From Pseudomonas sp. FP1742 (lineage in GTDB: Bacteria > Pseudomonadota > Gammaproteobacteria > Pseudomonadales > Pseudomonadaceae): a DNA stretch of 64,000 nt. The stretch spans positions 620,001-684,000 of the forward strand of contig NZ_CP117460.1 in the NCBI RefSeq assembly GCF_030687145.1, in the 5' to 3' direction. The position numbers were made by a program, and so were the translations under genes. Below the pieces are notes generated by a model. The model did not search any database. It was given only the letters and a program-made list of their open reading frames with translations, and was not told where the DNA came from. This document shows positions 30,946 through 39,652 of this stretch, one piece after another (the first letter of the stretch is position 1; the number at the start of each line of letters is the position of its first letter).

Positions 30946-31866
30946 ATGAGCAACCCCTTACCGGGTATCGGCATGGATTACAGCCCCTCCCAGTTCATGG
31001 CCCGCCAACGCATCGAAAGCCAGATCAACCTGCCACGCCTGTTCGCCGCCATCGACGCCGACCCCGGAATCGTCGGCGCGGGCGTTGTGTACATTGACGC
31101 TGAGTTCAACGTAGTGACCCTGCGCGAGTTCAAGCCGATTTGCAGCATCAAGCCCAAGCGGATCATTTTGCGCGAGGCGCAGAAGTACATTGCGCCTGCG
31201 CAATTCGTCCAGCAGGTGCAGGACAATCCGCGCGAATCGCGCCTGGTTGGTGAGGCAGTCAACACCAGCTTATCGTGCGCGGGTGCAGTGATCGGCTGGA
31301 TCGTAGTGCTCAGTGGCTCCGTGGCTATTCCGTTTTCGGCAGGGGCAAGTACGGTGGTCGCTGCGCTCGGTTATACCGCTGCGGCTGCCAGCTCAGTGCA
31401 GTGTTTTGCCAGCGGCTATCGGACCCGCAATGAGATCGTCAACCCCGCCCGTAACGATGAGCTCGACAGCGAAGAGTGGTACCAGTACACCATGATTGCG
31501 CTGGATGCTGCGTCCTTGGTCGGGGTAGGCGCATCCACGCTGACAACGCTCAAACTGGTCAGGCTGAATAAGGCCACGACCGGGAAAAGTGTCAGGGAAG
31601 TGCTCAGGGGGCTGAATCGACAGGAGCGTGCCAAACTGACCAAAGAACTATTGAGCATCAACGACCCGCGCTTGACGTCGAAGATGATCAAGTTGAAGCA
31701 GTTGTCGGGTGAATTGCCCAAGCGTTTCACACCCACCGAGGTCAAGAATGCAACGGTCACTCAGATAAAAGACGCCTTGGGCGCCGCTATCGGTTTTACC
31801 GGCAGTGCAATTTCGGGCAATGTCCGCACCATTGCCGTAGGTCTGTACGAGGAGGCTGAGCAATGA
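30946..31866 (+). CDS. Hypothetical protein with glycine/alanine-rich hydrophobic core; candidate toxin/effector
   Basis: I do not recognise this 306-residue protein by name. It has no signal peptide and no PAAR, VgrG or Rhs part. A soluble N-terminal 100 residues precede a strongly hydrophobic Gly/Ala/Ser-rich stretch (about 108-154, containing IGWIVVLSGSVAIPFSAGAS), a second at 182-204 and a third, amphipathic one at 276-302. Between them lies a Lys/Arg-rich helical segment (205-262). This layout resembles pore-forming bacterial toxins and type VI effectors. The next gene overlaps it by 4 bases and encodes a four-helix membrane protein, as an immunity gene would. The toxin role is inference. 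Confidence 0.5.
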   Translation: MSNPLPGIGMDYSPSQFMARQRIESQINLPRLFAAIDADPGIVGAGVVYIDAEFNVVTLREFKPICSIKPKRIILREAQKYIAPAQFVQQVQDNPRESRLVGEAVNTSLSCAGAVIGWIVVLSGSVAIPFSAGASTVVAALGYTAAAASSVQCFASGYRTRNEIVNPARNDELDSEEWYQYTMIALDAASLVGVGASTLTTLKLVRLNKATTGKSVREVLRGLNRQERAKLTKELLSINDPRLTSKMIKLKQLSGELPKRFTPTEVKNATVTQIKDALGAAIGFTGSAISGNVRTIAVGLYEEAEQ

Positions 31867-32312
31867 ATGAGCTGCCCAGCATTCGCAATTTTCTATCGAA
31901 GTATTTCCCGGTCTTCATGGGGGCAATATTCGCGTCAATTTTTACCCTGGTCTTTGCGGTGCCTTTGTTTTTCGAAAGCTATTTTCGAAACCTTCCGTTG
32001 GCTGACAGCGCCAAGTACTCGTTTTTCGGGGGGATCGCGCTGACCCTCATTGTCGCGCACTGCCATTTCATGGTCGCGCGCGGTCGTCCGCATTGGGTGC
32101 GGCCTCTGGTTGTGCTTCTGGCCCTTTGTTTTCTTGGGGTATTGCCCACCATTGCATATGAGGTGCATCCCCTGACTTATGCTGTGACGTTGTTGTTCCC
32201 ATTGCTGGCGCTATTGCTGCTCAACAGCAAGCGTCACCGCGAGATGCGCCAGAAGCTGCTTGAAGTACGTCACTTGCGCCAAGCTGTTATTGCAAAGCAC
32301 AAAGCCCGTTAG
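31863..32312 (+). CDS. Four-helix membrane protein; candidate immunity partner
   Basis: This 149-residue protein has four predicted membrane helices (about residues 15-37, 52-70, 79-98 and 103-121) and a basic cytoplasmic tail (NSKRHREMRQKLLEVRHLRQ). It has no family signature I recognise. The ATGA overlap with the preceding gene means the two are translated together. Inner-membrane immunity proteins against pore-forming effectors often look like this. Its base composition is more AT-rich than the flanking housekeeping genes, in keeping with an accessory cassette. Confidence 0.5.
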   Translation: MNELPSIRNFLSKYFPVFMGAIFASIFTLVFAVPLFFESYFRNLPLADSAKYSFFGGIALTLIVAHCHFMVARGRPHWVRPLVVLLALCFLGVLPTIAYEVHPLTYAVTLLFPLLALLLLNSKRHREMRQKLLEVRHLRQAVIAKHKAR

Positions 32313-32368
32313 TTGAGTAGATTCGGGCCCCGCCCTTCACACGTGCGCCACAAATATGTGCAACTCTC

Positions 32369-32414
32369 GCACCATAACCGCGGCCACGGCGCCGTTTTGG
32401 TGCTGTACTGCACC
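32369..32414 (+). promoter_or_regulatory. NtrC-like half-sites upstream of the amidoligase cluster
   Basis: GCACC at 32369-32373 and an inverted pair GGTGC-N6-GCACC at 32399-32414 lie about 60-105 bp upstream of the predicted sigma-54 start. GCACC/GGTGC are NtrC half-site sequences, but here the inner pair faces outward, so the assignment is tentative. Confidence 0.35.
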
Positions 32415-32447
32415 GGGTCTGTTGATAAAGCGCAATGACCGCCGCTC

Positions 32448-32462
32448 TGGCATAAGTCTTGC
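32448..32462 (+). promoter_or_regulatory. Candidate sigma-54 promoter of the amidoligase cluster
   Basis: TGGCATAAGTCTTGC has GG and GC exactly ten bases apart and fits TGGCAC-N5-TTGC except at one position. The predicted start is near 32474, 27 bases before the GTG start codon. Confidence 0.6.
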
Positions 32463-32500
32463 GCGCTTTGTGTCTATGCCCTGGCTCGCAGGAGGCCGCC

Positions 32501-35500
32501 GTGTCGATTCATGTCGCATTGCATCACGTCACGCATTACCGCTACGACCGCGCCGTCGAGCTCGGTCCGCAGATCGTTCGCCTGCGCCCGGCTGCCCACA
32601 GCCGCACGCGGATACTGTCCTATGCGCTGAAAGTCTCGCCCGAGCAGCATTTCATCAACTGGCAGCAAGACCCCCAGGGCAATTACCTGGCGCGGTTGGT
32701 GTTCCCGGAGAAAACCGATGAGCTGCGGATCGAAGTCGACCTGCTGGCCGAGATGGCAGTCTTCAATCCCTTCGACTTCTTCCTCGAGCCCTACGCCGAG
32801 AAGATCCCTTTCGCCTATGCAGCGGACGAGCGCAAAGAGCTGGCGCCGTACCTGGAAACCTTGCCGCTGACGCCGACATTCAAGGCCTATCTGGACGGCA
32901 TCGACCGCACGCCGTTGCCCAGCGTGGATTTCCTCGTCGCACTCAACCAGCGCCTGAGCGAAGACATCGGTTATCTGATTCGTATGGAACCGGGGGTACA
33001 GACCCCGGAATACACCCTTGAACAGGCCTCGGGTTCCTGCCGTGACTCGGCGTGGTTGCTGGTGCAATTGCTGCGCAACCTTGGCCTGGCGGCACGATTC
33101 GTCTCCGGTTACCTGATCCAGCTGACTGCCGATGTCAAAAGCCTCGATGGCCCCTCGGGCACCGACGTGGATTTCACTGACCTGCACGCCTGGTGCGAAG
33201 TGTATTTACCCGGCGCCGGCTGGATCGGCCTGGACGCGACCTCAGGGCTGTTTGCCGGTGAAGGACACATTCCGTTGGCGTGCAGTCCCGATCCGTCCTC
33301 TGCGGCGCCGATCAGTGGCCTGGTGGAACCGTGCGAGTGCGAATTCACCCACGAAATGTCAGTCGAGCGGATTTGGGAAGCGCCAAGGGTTACCAAACCC
33401 TACACCGAAGACCAATGGCTGGCGATTCAGGCCTTGGGCCGGCAGATTGATGCTGATTTGCTTGAAGGTGACGTGCGCCTGACCATGGGCGGCGAGCCGA
33501 CGTTCGTTTCCATCGATGACCCGGACGGCGCCGAGTGGAACACTGCCGCGCTCGGGCCAGACAAGCGTCGGCTGTCAGCCGAACTGTTCCAGCGCATGCG
33601 CAAGCATTACGCGCCCAAGGGCCTGGTGCATTTCGGTCAGGGTAAGTGGTACCCCGGCGAGCAACTGCCGCGCTGGTCGCTGAACTGCTACTGGCGCCGC
33701 GATGGCGTGCCGATCTGGCACAACAGCGCGCTGATCGCCGATGAGCAGGAAGACTACGGCGCCGATGGTGAACTGGCCGGGCGTTTTCTGGCGAGTGTCG
33801 CCGAGCGCTTGAAAATTCCGACACGCTTCGTGTTCCCGGCCTACGAAGACAATTTCTATTACCTCTGGCGCGAAGGCGCATTGCCGCAGAACGTCAGCGC
33901 CGAAGACTCACGCCTGGAAGAGCCGCTGGAGCGGGCGCGACTGCGCAAAGTCTTCAGTCAGGGCCTGGATAAGGTGATCGGTCAGGTCCTGCCGCTGGCG
34001 CGTACCGCCAAGGGCGATCAATGGCAAAGCGGCCGCTGGTACCTGCGCGAAGAACACTGCCGGCTGGTACCGGGGGATTCGCCGCTGGGTTATCGCTTGC
34101 CGCTCGGCTCGCAGCCTTGGGTGAAAGCCGCGGAGTACCCGTTCATTCACCCCACGGACCCGAATCAGGACTTCCCTGAGCTGCCGGGTACCGACCAGCT
34201 ACGGAATCACGCTCAACCGAAAACGGCTGACGAACGTGTGCCCGAGATCGACCAATCCGCCGACTGGCTGACTCGCACTGCGTTCTGCGCCGAAGCCCGA
34301 GAAGGCCGGTTGTACCTGTTCATGCCGCCGCTGGAGCGGGTCGAGGATTACCTCGAACTGGTTGCCGCCATCGAAGCCACCGCCGAGGAACTGCATTGCC
34401 CGGTTCTGCTGGAAGGCTATGAGCCACCGAGCGATCCGCGCCTGAGCAACTTCCGCATTACCCCGGATCCGGGGGTGATCGAGGTCAATGTCCAGCCGTC
34501 CGCGACCTGGGATGAGTTGGTGGAACGCACCGAATTCCTATACGAAGAGGCGCGCCAGACCCGGCTGACCACCGAGAAATTCATGATCGACGGCCGGCAC
34601 ACCGGCACCGGCGGCGGTAACCATTTCGTCCTGGGGGGCGCAACCCCGGCTGACTCGCCGTTTCTACGTCGTCCCGACCTGCTGCGCAGCCTGATCAGCT
34701 ACTGGCATAACCACCCGTCCTTGTCCTACCTGTTTTCCGGGCTGTTCATCGGCCCGACATCCCAGGCACCGCGGGTGGACGAAGCGCGCAACGATTCGTT
34801 GTATGAACTGGAAATCGCTTTTGCACAGATGCCGAAGCCGGGTGAAGAGTGCCCGCCATGGCTGGTGGACCGCTTGCTGCGCAATTTGCTGATCGACGTG
34901 ACCGGCAACACTCACCGTGCTGAATTTTGCATCGACAAACTCTATTCGCCGGACGGCGCCACCGGGCGCCTCGGCTTGCTGGAACTGCGAGCCTTTGAAA
35001 TGCCGCCCCATGCGCGCATGAGCCTGGCTCAGCAGTTGTTGCTGCGGGCGCTGGTGGCGCGGTTCTGGCGCGAGCCTTATGCGCCGCCGAAGCTGGCGCG
35101 TTGGGGCACCGAACTGCACGACCGGTTCCTGCTGCCGCACTTCATCGAGCAGGATTTCGCCGATGTGATCGTCGACCTCAATGCCGCCGGTTATCCCGTG
35201 CGGGCCGAGTGGTTCGCGGCGCATCTGGAGTTCCGTTTTCCCAAGGTCGGCGACTACGCCGTCAGCGGCATCGAACTGGAATTGCGTCAGGCGCTGGAGC
35301 CTTGGCATGTGTTGGGCGAGGAGGGCAGCGCGGGCGGTACGGTGCGTTATGTGGATTCGTCCCTAGAGCGCTTGCAGGTCAAGCTTACGGGGCTACCGCC
35401 GCAACGTTATCTGCTGACCTGCAACGGCATTCCGGTGCCGTTGCAACCTACCGGTCGGGTCGGCGAGTTCGTCGCCGGTGTACGTTTCCGTGCCTGGCAA

Positions 35501-35776
35501 CCATACAACTGCCTGCAGCCGACCATCCCGGTCCATGCGCCGCTGGTGTTCGATTTGCTCGACACCTGGATGGGGCGTTCTCTGGGCGGTTGTCAGTACC
35601 ACGTCGCCCATCCGGGCGGGCGCAACTACGACAGCCTTCCGGTGAACGCCAATGAGGCCGAGAGCCGGCGAATGGCGCGTTTCTTCCGTATCGGACACAC
35701 GCCTGGGAAACTTCCTGTACCGAAACTGGAAATCAACGACGAGCTGCCGATGACGCTCGATTTACGACGTTTCTAA
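32501..35776 (+). CDS. Transglutaminase-DUF2126 amidoligase fusion protein
   Basis: This 1091-residue protein joins a transglutaminase-like peptidase unit (about residues 1-290) to a DUF2126 putative amidoligase region (about 300-1090). The transglutaminase triad is intact: Cys in GSCRDSAWLLVQLL, His in DLHAWCEVY and Asp in GLDATSG. The amidoligase part starts near LTMGGEPTFVSIDD, and DUF2126 proteins are described as glutamine-synthetase-like COOH-NH2 ligases. The GTG start at 32501, with CAGGAGG upstream, is preferred because MRALCLC upstream is unlike the family. It is the first of three genes predicted by comparative genomics to make or modify a small peptide; no product is known. Confidence 0.85.
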   Translation: MSIHVALHHVTHYRYDRAVELGPQIVRLRPAAHSRTRILSYALKVSPEQHFINWQQDPQGNYLARLVFPEKTDELRIEVDLLAEMAVFNPFDFFLEPYAEKIPFAYAADERKELAPYLETLPLTPTFKAYLDGIDRTPLPSVDFLVALNQRLSEDIGYLIRMEPGVQTPEYTLEQASGSCRDSAWLLVQLLRNLGLAARFVSGYLIQLTADVKSLDGPSGTDVDFTDLHAWCEVYLPGAGWIGLDATSGLFAGEGHIPLACSPDPSSAAPISGLVEPCECEFTHEMSVERIWEAPRVTKPYTEDQWLAIQALGRQIDADLLEGDVRLTMGGEPTFVSIDDPDGAEWNTAALGPDKRRLSAELFQRMRKHYAPKGLVHFGQGKWYPGEQLPRWSLNCYWRRDGVPIWHNSALIADEQEDYGADGELAGRFLASVAERLKIPTRFVFPAYEDNFYYLWREGALPQNVSAEDSRLEEPLERARLRKVFSQGLDKVIGQVLPLARTAKGDQWQSGRWYLREEHCRLVPGDSPLGYRLPLGSQPWVKAAEYPFIHPTDPNQDFPELPGTDQLRNHAQPKTADERVPEIDQSADWLTRTAFCAEAREGRLYLFMPPLERVEDYLELVAAIEATAEELHCPVLLEGYEPPSDPRLSNFRITPDPGVIEVNVQPSATWDELVERTEFLYEEARQTRLTTEKFMIDGRHTGTGGGNHFVLGGATPADSPFLRRPDLLRSLISYWHNHPSLSYLFSGLFIGPTSQAPRVDEARNDSLYELEIAFAQMPKPGEECPPWLVDRLLRNLLIDVTGNTHRAEFCIDKLYSPDGATGRLGLLELRAFEMPPHARMSLAQQLLLRALVARFWREPYAPPKLARWGTELHDRFLLPHFIEQDFADVIVDLNAAGYPVRAEWFAAHLEFRFPKVGDYAVSGIELELRQALEPWHVLGEEGSAGGTVRYVDSSLERLQVKLTGLPPQRYLLTCNGIPVPLQPTGRVGEFVAGVRFRAWQPYNCLQPTIPVHAPLVFDLLDTWMGRSLGGCQYHVAHPGGRNYDSLPVNANEAESRRMARFFRIGHTPGKLPVPKLEINDELPMTLDLRRF

Positions 35777-35864
35777 ACCGTACGCGACGCTCGGATTTTT
35801 CGTATATCCGGGCGTCATGAGCCTGCGGTAGTCTGATCGTTCTTTGCTGTCTGCCGAGCTTTCC

Positions 35865-38351
35865 ATGCCTGACCTGCTTGACCGCTACCCGCTGACCGCG
35901 GGCACTTACCACGAACTGCTCGACGACAGCGGCGCCGTGCGCCCGCACTGGCGGCGGCTGTTCGATCAATTGCAACGCAGCACGCCAGCGCAACTGGTGC
36001 AGCGGCAGGCACTGCTGGCTCGGCAGATCCAGGAAAACGGCGTGACCTACAACGTCTACGCCGACCCCAAGGGGGCCGACCGGCCGTGGGAGCTGGACCT
36101 GCTCCCCCATGTGATTGCCGCCGATGAGTGGCAGCAGTTATCGGTCGGGATCGCGCAACGGGCGCGTTTGCTCAATGCTGTGCTGGCGGACCTGTACGGT
36201 CCGCAGCGTTTGATCGCCGAAGGCCTGCTGCCGGCTGAGCTGGTATTCGGTCACAACAATTTCCTTTGGCCGTGTCAGTGCATTGCACCGCCCGAGGGGG
36301 CCTTTCTGCATCTGTATGCCGTGGACTTGGCGCGCACGCCTGACGGTTGCTGGTGGGTGACCGCGGATCGCACTCAAGCGCCATCCGGTGCCGGTTACGC
36401 CCTGGAAAACCGCACCATCGTGTCCCGTGCCTTCCCCGAGCTGTACCGCGACTTGAAGGTGCGGCACCTGGCCGGGTTCTTCCGCACCCTTCAGGAAACC
36501 CTTGCCCGTCAGGCGCCGAGCGACGACGAAGTGCCGCTGGTGGTACTGCTGACTCCGGGGCGTTTCAACGAAAGCTATTTCGAACACTTGTATCTGGCTC
36601 GCCAGCTCGGCTATCCATTGGTGGAAGGCGGCGACCTGACCGTGCGCAATGCCACGGTATACCTGAAGACCTTGAGCGGCCTGCGCCGGGTTCACGCGAT
36701 CATGCGTCGGCTCGACGATGACTTCTGCGATCCGCTGGAGCTGCGCACCGACTCGGCCCTTGGCGTGCCGGGGCTGCTCGAAGCGGTGCGTCAGGGCCGG
36801 GTGCTGGTGGCCAACGCCCTCGGCAGCGGCGTGCTGGAGTCGCCGGGGTTGCTGGGTTTCCTGCCGAAGATCAATCAGTTCCTGTTCGGTGAAGAACTGA
36901 TCCTGCCGTCCATCGCGACCTGGTGGTGCGGTGAAGCGCCGGTGCTGGCCCAGGCCCTGGAAAAACTGCCGGAACTGTTGATCAAGCCGGCGTTTCCGTC
37001 ACAGAGCTTCGCGCCGGTATTTGGTCGCGATTTGAGTGAAAAACAGCGCCAGGCTCTGGCCGAGCGCATGCAGGCACGGCCTTACGCCTATGTTGCGCAA
37101 GAATTGGCGCAACTGTCCCAGGCGCCGATCTGGCAGGCCGAAGGCGGACAGTTGCAACCGCGAGCCATCGGCATGCGCGTGTATGCGGTGGCCAGTCGGG
37201 AGGGTTATCGCGTGCTGCCCGGTGGCCTGACCCGGGTTGCCGCCGAGGCCGATGCCGAAGCGGTGTCGATGCAACGCGGTGGCGCGAGCAAGGACACCTG
37301 GGTGCTGGGCGATCGGCCGCCCAGCGGTGAACAATGGAGGGCCCAGCGCAACATTGGCGTTCACGATCTGGTGCGCCGCGATCCGTATCTGCCATCGCGG
37401 GTGGTCGAGAACCTGTTCTGGTTCGGTCGTTACTGCGAGCGCTGCGATGACAGCGCGCGGCTGCTGCGGGTCATGCTCGCACGCTATGTCGATGGCGATG
37501 ACCCGCAAGCCCTGGAAGCGGCGGTCGATCTAGGTGAGCGCCTGAATCTGTTGCCGGAGGAGGGCGAGTTGCCGCAGCGATTGCTGGCGGCGCTGCTCGG
37601 CGATGATTGGCCGTTCAGCCTGCGCTCCAATCTGCAGCGTTTGCAGTGGGCGGCGTCGCAAGTACGCGGCAAGCTCTCGCGAGAGAACTGGCAAGCGCTG
37701 GTGGAGTTGCAGCGCGAGGCCATGGAGCTGGAAACCGAAGAGCCGGATTTCGGCGAGTTGCTGGATTTCCTCAACCGGTTGGTGATGTCGCTGGCGGCGT
37801 TGTCTGGTTTTGCCCTCGACGACATGACCCGGGATGAAGGCTGGCGCTTCCTGATGATCGGTCGACGGATCGAGCGGCTGCAATTTCTCAGCGGCAGCCT
37901 GGCCGCGTTTTTGCGCGGCGCCGGGGCTTTCGATCAGGCCGGGCTGGAGTGGCTGCTGGAACTGGGTAACAGCAGCATCACCTACCGCTCGCGGTACCTG
38001 GCGGTGGCGCAATTGATCCCGGTGCTCGACCTGTTGCTGCTCGATGAACAAAACCCGCACGCGGTGCTGTTCCAGTTGAAACTGGTGACCCGTACGTTGA
38101 AGCGCTTGAACGACGACTTCGGCGCGCCGCGCGAACCAGGTCTGCCGCAATTGGTGGAGCGGCTGGCGCGCTTCGATCTGGGCTGCCTGGAGAACTCGCT
38201 GTTCGGCCAGGCCAGTGTTCGCGCCGCTGTAGAAGGGCTGGCCGATCTGCTGCAGGAGATCGCCGATGCCAGCGGACAGGTGTCGGATCGCCTGGCCTTG
38301 CGCCATTTCGCCCATGTCGATGATGTCAGCCAGCGCACGGTGTCCGTCTGA
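35865..38351 (+). CDS. Circularly permuted ATP-grasp ligase fused to an alpha-E domain
   Basis: This 828-residue protein combines a circularly permuted type 2 ATP-grasp (DUF404/DUF407, about residues 60-490) with a helical alpha-E domain (DUF403, about 500-820). Visible features are YNVYADPKGADRPWELDLLP near the start, KPAFPSQSFAPVFGRDL in the nucleotide-binding part and VVENLFWFGRYCERCDDSAR, the typical opening of alpha-E. The family is thought to form peptide-like amide bonds with ATP. The start is set at ATG 35865 (MPDLLDRYP). The stop shares a base with the next ATG (TGATG). Confidence 0.87.
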   Translation: MPDLLDRYPLTAGTYHELLDDSGAVRPHWRRLFDQLQRSTPAQLVQRQALLARQIQENGVTYNVYADPKGADRPWELDLLPHVIAADEWQQLSVGIAQRARLLNAVLADLYGPQRLIAEGLLPAELVFGHNNFLWPCQCIAPPEGAFLHLYAVDLARTPDGCWWVTADRTQAPSGAGYALENRTIVSRAFPELYRDLKVRHLAGFFRTLQETLARQAPSDDEVPLVVLLTPGRFNESYFEHLYLARQLGYPLVEGGDLTVRNATVYLKTLSGLRRVHAIMRRLDDDFCDPLELRTDSALGVPGLLEAVRQGRVLVANALGSGVLESPGLLGFLPKINQFLFGEELILPSIATWWCGEAPVLAQALEKLPELLIKPAFPSQSFAPVFGRDLSEKQRQALAERMQARPYAYVAQELAQLSQAPIWQAEGGQLQPRAIGMRVYAVASREGYRVLPGGLTRVAAEADAEAVSMQRGGASKDTWVLGDRPPSGEQWRAQRNIGVHDLVRRDPYLPSRVVENLFWFGRYCERCDDSARLLRVMLARYVDGDDPQALEAAVDLGERLNLLPEEGELPQRLLAALLGDDWPFSLRSNLQRLQWAASQVRGKLSRENWQALVELQREAMELETEEPDFGELLDFLNRLVMSLAALSGFALDDMTRDEGWRFLMIGRRIERLQFLSGSLAAFLRGAGAFDQAGLEWLLELGNSSITYRSRYLAVAQLIPVLDLLLLDEQNPHAVLFQLKLVTRTLKRLNDDFGAPREPGLPQLVERLARFDLGCLENSLFGQASVRAAVEGLADLLQEIADASGQVSDRLALRHFAHVDDVSQRTVSV

Positions 38352-39241
38352 TGAGCGCCCATTACCAGATTTTCCACGACACCCATTATCACTACGACAG
38401 CCCGGTGTCCCTGGCCCAGCAACTAGCGCATCTGTGGCCGCGCGCCTGTGCCTGGCAGCGCTGCACCGAACAGCAGTTGCAGATCAGTCCCGAGCCGACT
38501 TCACGCCGGGATGAGCTGGATGTGTTCGGCAATCCGCTGACCCGGTTGGCGTTCGAGCGCCCCCACGATGAATTGCTGGTCAACGCTCGGCTCACCGTCG
38601 AAGTGCTGGAACGGCCGTCGCTGGACTTCAATCAATCGCCGGCCTGGGAAGAGACCTGCAACGCGCTGACCTACAGCACTCAACCACTCTCCCCAGAGCT
38701 GCTGGACGCCTGCCGTTACCGATTCGAATCGCCCTACGTGCATTTGAAGCGCAGTTTCGTCGAGTTCTCCGAAAGTTGCTTTCCTGCTGGTCGGCCATTG
38801 CTGTTGGGTGTTCAAGCATTGATGGAGAAGATCTTCAGCGAATTCACCTTCGACGCCGAGGCGACTCAAGTGGCGACGCCGCTGGTGGAAGTGCTGGAGC
38901 GGCGGCGTGGGGTTTGCCAGGACTTTGCCCATCTGATGCTCGCTTGCCTGCGCTCGCGCGGGTTGGCGGCGCGGTACATCAGCGGCTATCTGCTGACCCA
39001 GCCACCGCCGGGCCAGCCGCGGCTGATCGGCGCCGATGCGTCGCATGCCTGGGTGTCGGTGTTTTGCCCGGTGCTGGGGTGGGTGGATTTTGACCCGACC
39101 AACAATGTGCAACCGGCGCTGGAGCACATCACTCTGGCCTGGGGCCGGGATTTTTCCGATGTGTCGCCGTTGCGTGGAGTGATTCTGGGCGGTGGCAGCC
39201 ATGATCCCGAGGTTAGGGTAACGGTAATGCCATTGGAGTAA
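38351..39241 (+). CDS. Transglutaminase-like cysteine peptidase, third gene of the amidoligase cluster
   Basis: This 296-residue protein has a transglutaminase N-terminal beta domain (YQIFHDTHYHYDSPVSLAQQ) and a core with an intact triad: Cys in RGVCQDFAHLML, His in DASHAWVSVF and Asp in WVDFDPTNN. It is translationally coupled to the ATP-grasp gene. Alpha-E/ATP-grasp operons typically carry such a protein, which may cleave or ligate the peptide product. No signal peptide is visible, so it acts in the cytoplasm. Confidence 0.88.
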   Translation: MSAHYQIFHDTHYHYDSPVSLAQQLAHLWPRACAWQRCTEQQLQISPEPTSRRDELDVFGNPLTRLAFERPHDELLVNARLTVEVLERPSLDFNQSPAWEETCNALTYSTQPLSPELLDACRYRFESPYVHLKRSFVEFSESCFPAGRPLLLGVQALMEKIFSEFTFDAEATQVATPLVEVLERRRGVCQDFAHLMLACLRSRGLAARYISGYLLTQPPPGQPRLIGADASHAWVSVFCPVLGWVDFDPTNNVQPALEHITLAWGRDFSDVSPLRGVILGGGSHDPEVRVTVMPLE

Positions 39242-39252
39242 CGAAGATCCAG

Positions 39253-39276
39253 TGTGGGAGCGAGCTTGCTCCCACA
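39253..39276. repeat. Short REP-related palindrome
   Basis: TGTGGGAGCGAGCTTGCTCC is part of a perfect 24-bp palindrome just past the amidoligase cluster. It may double as a transcript end. Confidence 0.8.
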
Positions 39277-39317
39277 GGGTATGTGCAGTTTTTTGAAGGG
39301 ATTTCAGACTGGTCTGT

Positions 39318-39346
39318 GAGGGTCAGCAACATCGTTGCTGACCCTG
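39318..39346. other. Strong hairpin between convergent genes
   Basis: A perfect 11-bp stem GGGTCAGCAAC/GTTGCTGACCC with a 3-nt loop spans 39320-39344. No T-run follows on either strand. A second short stem CCTGAG/CTCAGG is near 39384. It may be a factor-dependent terminator or an RNA 3' end. Confidence 0.5.
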
Positions 39347-39392
39347 GACACAGATCCGGTGGGCCTGATCAGATCATCGGGCCCTGAGGGTC

Positions 39393-39584
39393 TCAGGCGT
39401 CGGGCGCCTGATCTTTCGGTGCTTCAACATCACTTTCTGCGGCCACTTCACCTTCTGTATCCGGGTTCAGTGCGGCTGCTTCTTCTTCAGCTGTAGCTTT
39501 CTTGCGCTGAAGCTTTTCCTCTTTCTTCTGCTCCTTGGCCAAGTCTCTCTGACGTTTGGCGAAGGAATAATTAGGTTTAGCCAT
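39393..39584 (-). CDS. Small highly charged cytoplasmic protein
   Basis: This 63-residue protein begins MAKPNYSFAKRQRDLAKEQK. A Lys/Glu-rich helix (about residues 8-36) is followed by an acidic, Ala-rich disordered tail. Similar short proteins occur in pseudomonads with no known role. ATG 39584 is chosen since the 31 codons upstream look non-coding. It lies 68 bases downstream of the LOG gene on the same strand and may share its transcript. Confidence 0.7.
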   Translation of the reverse strand: MAKPNYSFAKRQRDLAKEQKKEEKLQRKKATAEEEAAALNPDTEGEVAAESDVEAPKDQAPDA

Positions 39585-39652
39585 GGGCGATCCTCTGGGG
39601 TCGAAGGTGAGGTTGAGCGGCGCATATTCTGCCCTGTATCGGCACCGAGCCG

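Follow-up and report, generated by a model that had tools for sequence, protein, structure and literature searches.

Under which condition does a bacterium need a set of enzymes that appear to make or break amide bonds? This question is raised by a three-gene cluster of Pseudomonas sp. FP1742, which lies in the 64,000-nucleotide stretch of contig NZ_CP117460.1 that we analysed (positions 620,001 to 684,000; hereafter the window, whose numbering we use for the cluster). Gene 1 encodes a transglutaminase-like domain fused to DUF2126, gene 2 a circularly permuted (CP) ATP-grasp domain fused to alpha-E, and gene 3 a second transglutaminase-like protein. DUF2126/alpha-E/ATP-grasp clusters are widespread, and in the open-licence literature we found no described product for them. 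We propose, with a probability of about 75%, that the cluster is a sigma-54-dependent and most probably NtrC-activated nitrogen-limitation operon, whose ligases and transglutaminases handle amide bonds.

A sigma-54 promoter very likely lies ahead of gene 1

The proposal starts from two predicted features upstream of gene 1:

32448-32462, plus strand: sigma-54 promoter core TGGCATAAGTCTTGC, with the -24 GG at 32449-32450, ten intervening nucleotides (N10) and the -12 GC at 32461-32462
32474-32500, plus strand: predicted leader between the expected transcription start and the GTG start codon, holding the conserved block GGCTCGCAGGAGGC (32483-32496), which includes the Shine-Dalgarno sequence

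The core combines GG-N10-GC with a TGGC...TTGC frame and reaches 0.90 of the maximum in a site scorer whose consensus and weights we set ourselves. Judging from the distance to the -12 GC, transcription is expected to start near 32474, 27 nucleotides ahead of the GTG at 32501, which bears out the initial annotation of this DNA in its claim of a GG-N10-GC promoter 27 bp before the start codon. TGGCATAANTCTTGC occurs as a single copy in the genome, and no sigma-70-like promoter was found in 31800-39600. Taken alone, the promoter string is unremarkable, since seven places on the two strands of the window, this one included, score equally high; it becomes significant because it is conserved in orthologues.

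Upon comparison of 110 distinct Pseudomonas upstream regions, we found GG-N10-GC kept in every one, at -52 to -55 from the start codon, while the flanks vary and carry indels around a constant core. A genus-wide scan recovered TGGCATAANTYTTGC in 203 of the 220 Pseudomonas genomes that contain gene 1 (E 1e-100 or better; 220 of 298 genomes) and in 4 of the 78 that do not. Ten of the 17 gene-bearing genomes without TGGCATAANTYTTGC have an altered box at -54, which in eight of them reads TGGCAC like the consensus and in L200 is weaker (0.80). Six more, a clade at 57-61% protein identity, carry GG-N10-GC at -96 to -99 (GGCATGAATTCTGC in five, GGCATGAAACCTGC in L207). The remaining one, G087, has a broken gene 1, with its DUF2126 gene in pieces (G087:C3:462846-464714), and its upstream region fell outside the comparison. 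The GG/GC spacing, whose conservation the initial annotation had proposed as a check, is thus kept in 16 of these 17 genomes as well as in all the close upstream regions. Conversely, the four genomes that have TGGCATAANTYTTGC and lack DUF2126 (L227, L228, L229 and L230) keep genes 2 and 3 behind the same promoter, with 29-78 bp between it and the point where the alignment of gene 2 begins; this shows that the ATP-grasp/alpha-E and transglutaminase genes can be retained without DUF2126.

Could the match nonetheless be fortuitous and conserved merely together with a whole or recently shared leader? The seven equally good matches in the window and the high conservation of parts of the leader and of the start region would fit such an account. 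We consider it very improbable, because indels occur in the flanks and none in the core, diverged orthologues alter letters and retain GG-N10-GC, the site is enriched outside Pseudomonas, and the promoter is retained before gene 2 after the loss of gene 1. The enrichment was seen at 20 other Gammaproteobacterial loci, seven of which carry, in the 300 bp before gene 1, a site with a score of at least 0.85, against 55 of 1504 controls; within -120 to -50, the figures are 6/20 and 16/1504 control stretches. At some of these loci gene 1 lies behind or faces other cluster genes, and there a site of at least 0.85 was present at four of seven tested ATP-grasp starts and at none of three Anbu starts. 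From its conservation, its box variants and its retention ahead of gene 2, we conclude that the promoter belongs to the operon. The leader block GGCTCGCAGGAGGC is itself nearly invariant in Pseudomonas, beyond the needs of a Shine-Dalgarno sequence, and may take part in post-transcriptional control.

Paired upstream elements suggest NtrC as the probable activator

Further upstream, the Pseudomonas alignment contains two more conserved units:

32347-32361, plus strand: element A, GCCACAAATATGTGC, putative NtrC site with the consensus GC[CA]AC-N5-YGTGC, centred at about -120
32389-32403, plus strand: element B, GCGCCGTTTTGGTGC, putative NtrC site, centred at about -78

NtrC-type sites are palindromes of the form GCACY-N5-RGTGC. 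In the alignment, element A can be located by its GTGC in 99 of the 110 sequences, its left half starts with GC in 95, and it stands 42 bp from element B in 82 of the 99. Element B retains GTGC in all 110 sequences and the exact GGTGC in 101; the copy in the window matches the palindrome at nine of ten positions, and in 26 of 33 non-redundant upstream regions element B is the top palindrome (ties counted; 7 to 9 of 10). Both elements are similar to sites elsewhere in the same genome: the sole P-II gene is preceded by GCACTGTTGTTGTGC, which resembles element A, and a perfect NtrC-type site, GCACCAACATGGTGC, lies at 393309 before a PAS-histidine-kinase gene, which together with the adjacent sigma-54 activator at 391104 presumably represents ntrB and ntrC. 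These similarities are among the observations in favour of NtrC as the probable activator of the Pseudomonas DUF2126 operon. The initial annotation had drawn its enhancer from half-sites (GCACC at 32369, GGTGC at 32399 and GCACC at 32410), all of which exist in the window. Among the 110 sequences, the two GCACC are exact in 29 and 25, respectively, and only GGTGC 32399, which is the right half of element B, is conserved; the palindrome-like units given above overlap these half-sites in part.

Conservation also runs on past element B (CTGTACTGC, 32403-32411) and includes, on the way to the promoter, AAAGCGC (32427-32433). Neither NtrC nor sigma-54 accounts for these two stretches.

A different enhancer-binding protein, responding not to general nitrogen limitation but to another signal, for example a particular amine or amino acid, might instead act on the same sigma-54 promoter. 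In favour of this, Sigma54_activat has 30 matches in the genome (25 strong), both upstream elements depart from the NtrC consensus, and CTGTACTGC and AAAGCGC would find a role. Specific sigma-54 activators are often linked to their targets, and no sigma-54 activator gene lies within the window, the nearest matches being at 391 kb and 1,700 kb. As the comparable Burkholderia cluster described below is moreover ntrC-dependent (PMC5491218), we regard control by such a protein as unlikely.

Related clusters respond to nitrogen limitation

The published expression passages concern a Burkholderia cluster or the Anbu operon, not the Pseudomonas DUF2126 operon, on whose regulation we found no paper among open-licence papers (subscription papers were outside the search). 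In passages of PMC5491218, Burkholderia cenocepacia H111 I35_5080-5083 are named as joint sigma-54/NtrC targets; when nitrogen is limiting, an ntrC mutant shows log2 values of -8.2, -9.4, -9.4 and -6.0 for them. These genes are likened to the present cluster by their descriptions there, namely DUF404/407 (ATP-grasp), DUF403 (alpha-E), a transglutaminase-like protein and a 'large protein containing transglutaminase-like domain'; unlike here, ATP-grasp and alpha-E are listed as separate genes.

The Anbu operon of P. putida (PP_2685-2688) is likewise made up of ATP-grasp, alpha-E (by homology to the operon L139 of the present genome) and transglutaminase genes, and it is nitrogen-induced according to passages of PMC8050072, PMC3325844 and PMC7801951; unlike the DUF2126 cluster, it has a proteasome-like Anbu subunit and no DUF2126. 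PP_2685 and PP_2688 are up on nitrate versus ammonium, and the response of a PP_2688 promoter fragment to nitrogen limitation is 3.7-fold (PMC8050072); PP2685-2687 are up under nitrogen limitation (PMC3325844). In marine metagenomes, the domains Bact_transglu_N, DUF403, DUF404 and DUF407 associate with urea-metabolism domains (passage of PMC3597751).

The initial annotation had placed the cluster under nitrogen limitation. The two conserved NtrC-like sites with their mostly constant spacing, the absence of an activator gene from the window, the NtrC- and sigma-54-dependent cluster of B. cenocepacia (PMC5491218) and the nitrogen-induced Anbu operon lend weight to that part of its proposal; the behaviour of the Anbu operon in an rpoN mutant, discussed below, pulls the other way.

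Three genes predicted to handle amide bonds

The enzymes that this promoter would serve are encoded in one direction throughout 32501-39241:

32501-35776, plus strand: gene 1, transglutaminase-like domain fused to DUF2126, 1091 amino acids, GTG start behind AGGAGG
35865-38351, plus strand: gene 2, circularly permuted ATP-grasp fused to alpha-E, likely start ATG 35865
38351-39241, plus strand: gene 3, transglutaminase-like protein (PF08379 and PF01841), whose ATG overlaps the stop codon of gene 2

In profile searches, gene 1 matched PF08379, PF01841 and PF09899 (the last at 1359 bits) and gene 2 matched PF14403/PF04174 and PF04168, in agreement with the initial gene assignments (transglutaminase, permuted ATP-grasp with alpha-E, and DUF2126). 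The mechanical open reading frame of gene 2 begins at 35844, with ATG 35865 as the likelier start, and its residues 27-490 match PDB 3n6x (E 3.4e-92). The residues expected of active enzymes, also claimed initially, are present: with the window's own sequences counted, the Cys-His-Asp triad is invariant in gene 1 (C180/H229/D245, 24 of 24 aligned sequences) and in gene 3 (C189/H232/D248, 18 of 18). We modelled the DUF2126 part (816 amino acids) with AlphaFold2 (predicted local distance difference test, pLDDT, 71.3; predicted template modelling score, pTM, 0.75), and Foldseek matched the model to glutamine synthetases, so that DUF2126 is, by this model, a glutamine-synthetase-like ligase fold. 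The predicted fold is shared with enzymes including GmaS (7cqn) and Dop (5lrt), whereas the identity is 6-15% in the matches listed, and the DUF2126 domain has roughly double their length and is joined to a transglutaminase domain.

The signature domains of the amidoligase/CP-ATP-grasp/alpha-E/transglutaminase neighbourhoods (Iyer et al. 2009, Mol Biosyst 5:1636, as cited in passages of PMC6376114, PMC5666114 and PMC3597751) are all found within this one gene run. The same families are adjacent and the same ATP-dependent amide synthesis is predicted in those neighbourhoods; beyond them as cited, we add the promoter and the link to nitrogen. Among 274 genomes of the class, 50 have DUF2126, and at 17 of the 20 class-level DUF2126 loci the fetched stretch also contains a CP-ATP-grasp gene. 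In one class genome (G460; L253 1005-9566), three DUF2126 regions are adjacent, two with their own transglutaminase domain.

These elements can be combined into a mechanism. Upon nitrogen shortage, phosphorylated NtrC would bind its two upstream elements, A at about 120 bp and B at about 78 bp before the start site. Through DNA looping it would then open the sigma-54 polymerase at 32448-32462, giving rise to one transcript spanning the three genes. Two of its products would be ATP-dependent carboxylate-amine ligases, namely the glutamine-synthetase-fold DUF2126 and the circularly permuted ATP-grasp, which is partnered by the helical alpha-E. The transcript would also supply two Cys-His-Asp transglutaminase-like domains, thiol acyl-transferases or hydrolases that would move or cut amide bonds. 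Most likely, gamma-glutamyl- or isopeptide-type amide bonds would be formed, and later cleaved or transferred, on a small molecule or a protein as part of nitrogen stress metabolism.

The initial annotation had envisaged a peptide-like product, which stands as a prediction; given the regulon context, the release of nitrogen is as reasonable as peptide synthesis. One possible version, tentative in our view, shares the promoter reading and differs in purpose: the ligases would tag an amine or peptide, as PuuA and GmaS do, and the Cys-His-Asp enzymes would free its nitrogen, so that the product is usable nitrogen. This scavenging scheme has to contend with the lack of a transporter or oxidase among the three genes and with ligases that could equally make a storage or signalling compound.

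Observations that weigh against the proposed control

Several observations weigh against a nitrogen-limitation operon under sigma-54 and NtrC. At the promoter, the boxes of the clade at 57-61% identity are weaker (0.80-0.83) and located elsewhere, and 13 of the 20 class-level upstream regions have no strong site before gene 1; the promoter rule is therefore not universal. At the enhancer, A and B both fall short of a perfect GCACY-N5-RGTGC palindrome, the best palindrome scores only modestly above shuffles (mean 8.15 versus 7.23 of 10), and both elements are unrecognisable in the diverged orthologues L200-L203, though the box persists there. As to function, confidence in the DUF2126 model is middling, and its Foldseek list also includes Dop, a glutamine-synthetase-fold enzyme that cleaves amides.

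Other such observations concern the related clusters. I35_5083 is identified as the DUF2126 protein by its name only, and a third alpha-E operon of the present genome (L140) has neither Anbu nor a sigma-54-like site. In P. putida, fragments upstream of PP_2685 and glnK were nitrogen-agnostic (passage of PMC8050072), and PP_2686-2688 were induced 14- to 20-fold even in an rpoN mutant (passage of PMC7801951), which argues against a strict rpoN dependence of the Anbu operon. In the same passage, urtA-D, there attributed to NtrB/NtrC, were likewise induced in the rpoN mutant.

A sigma-54 logic shared with Anbu operons

The genome of FP1742 has two further ATP-grasp/alpha-E/transglutaminase operons, L139 and the L140 operon mentioned above. 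L139 combines Anbu with a sigma-54-like site at -306. The genome's only Anbu match, at 3,135,153-3,135,899, is not beside the DUF2126 cluster. Anbu is present in 8 of 59 Pseudomonas genomes, and all eight ATP-grasp genes linked to it have a sigma-54-like site of at least 0.90 within 450 bp upstream. The ATP-grasp of the Yersinia Anbu operon releases phosphate from ATP (PMC6376114).

DUF2126 and Anbu clusters may, on a wider and rather doubtful reading, be alternative modules of one NtrC-governed system of amide conjugation and deconjugation. Each would consist of a CP-ATP-grasp/alpha-E ligase, a Cys-His-Asp hydrolase and an exchangeable partner (DUF2126 or Anbu), and would tag a nitrogen-rich substrate, possibly a protein, and dismantle it for nitrogen in starvation.

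The enzyme neighbourhood (Iyer et al. 2009, as cited) and the NtrC/sigma-54 control of a similar Burkholderia cluster (PMC5491218, in part) have been described before. New are the conserved sigma-54 promoter and the paired upstream elements of the Pseudomonas DUF2126 operon, the persistence of the promoter where DUF2126 is missing, and the sigma-54 logic common to the Anbu operon. The promoter and the probable NtrC control point to nitrogen limitation as the condition in which the system should be on; they tie an enzyme family of long standing to nitrogen stress, making its function testable, and join the DUF2126 and Anbu versions in one regulatory context.

Outside Pseudomonas, five of 20 loci (L239, L245, L250, L251 and L252) have Anbu adjacent to the DUF2126 gene, and in a sixth genome (G560, L257) Anbu stands before an ATP-grasp gene upstream of the DUF2126 gene.

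Directly upstream of the cluster in the window, 30946-31866 matches the NCBIfam Ssp4-family type VI secretion effector (397 bits). A gene of 149 amino acids without a family match overlaps the effector gene (region 30946-32312) and perhaps encodes its immunity protein.

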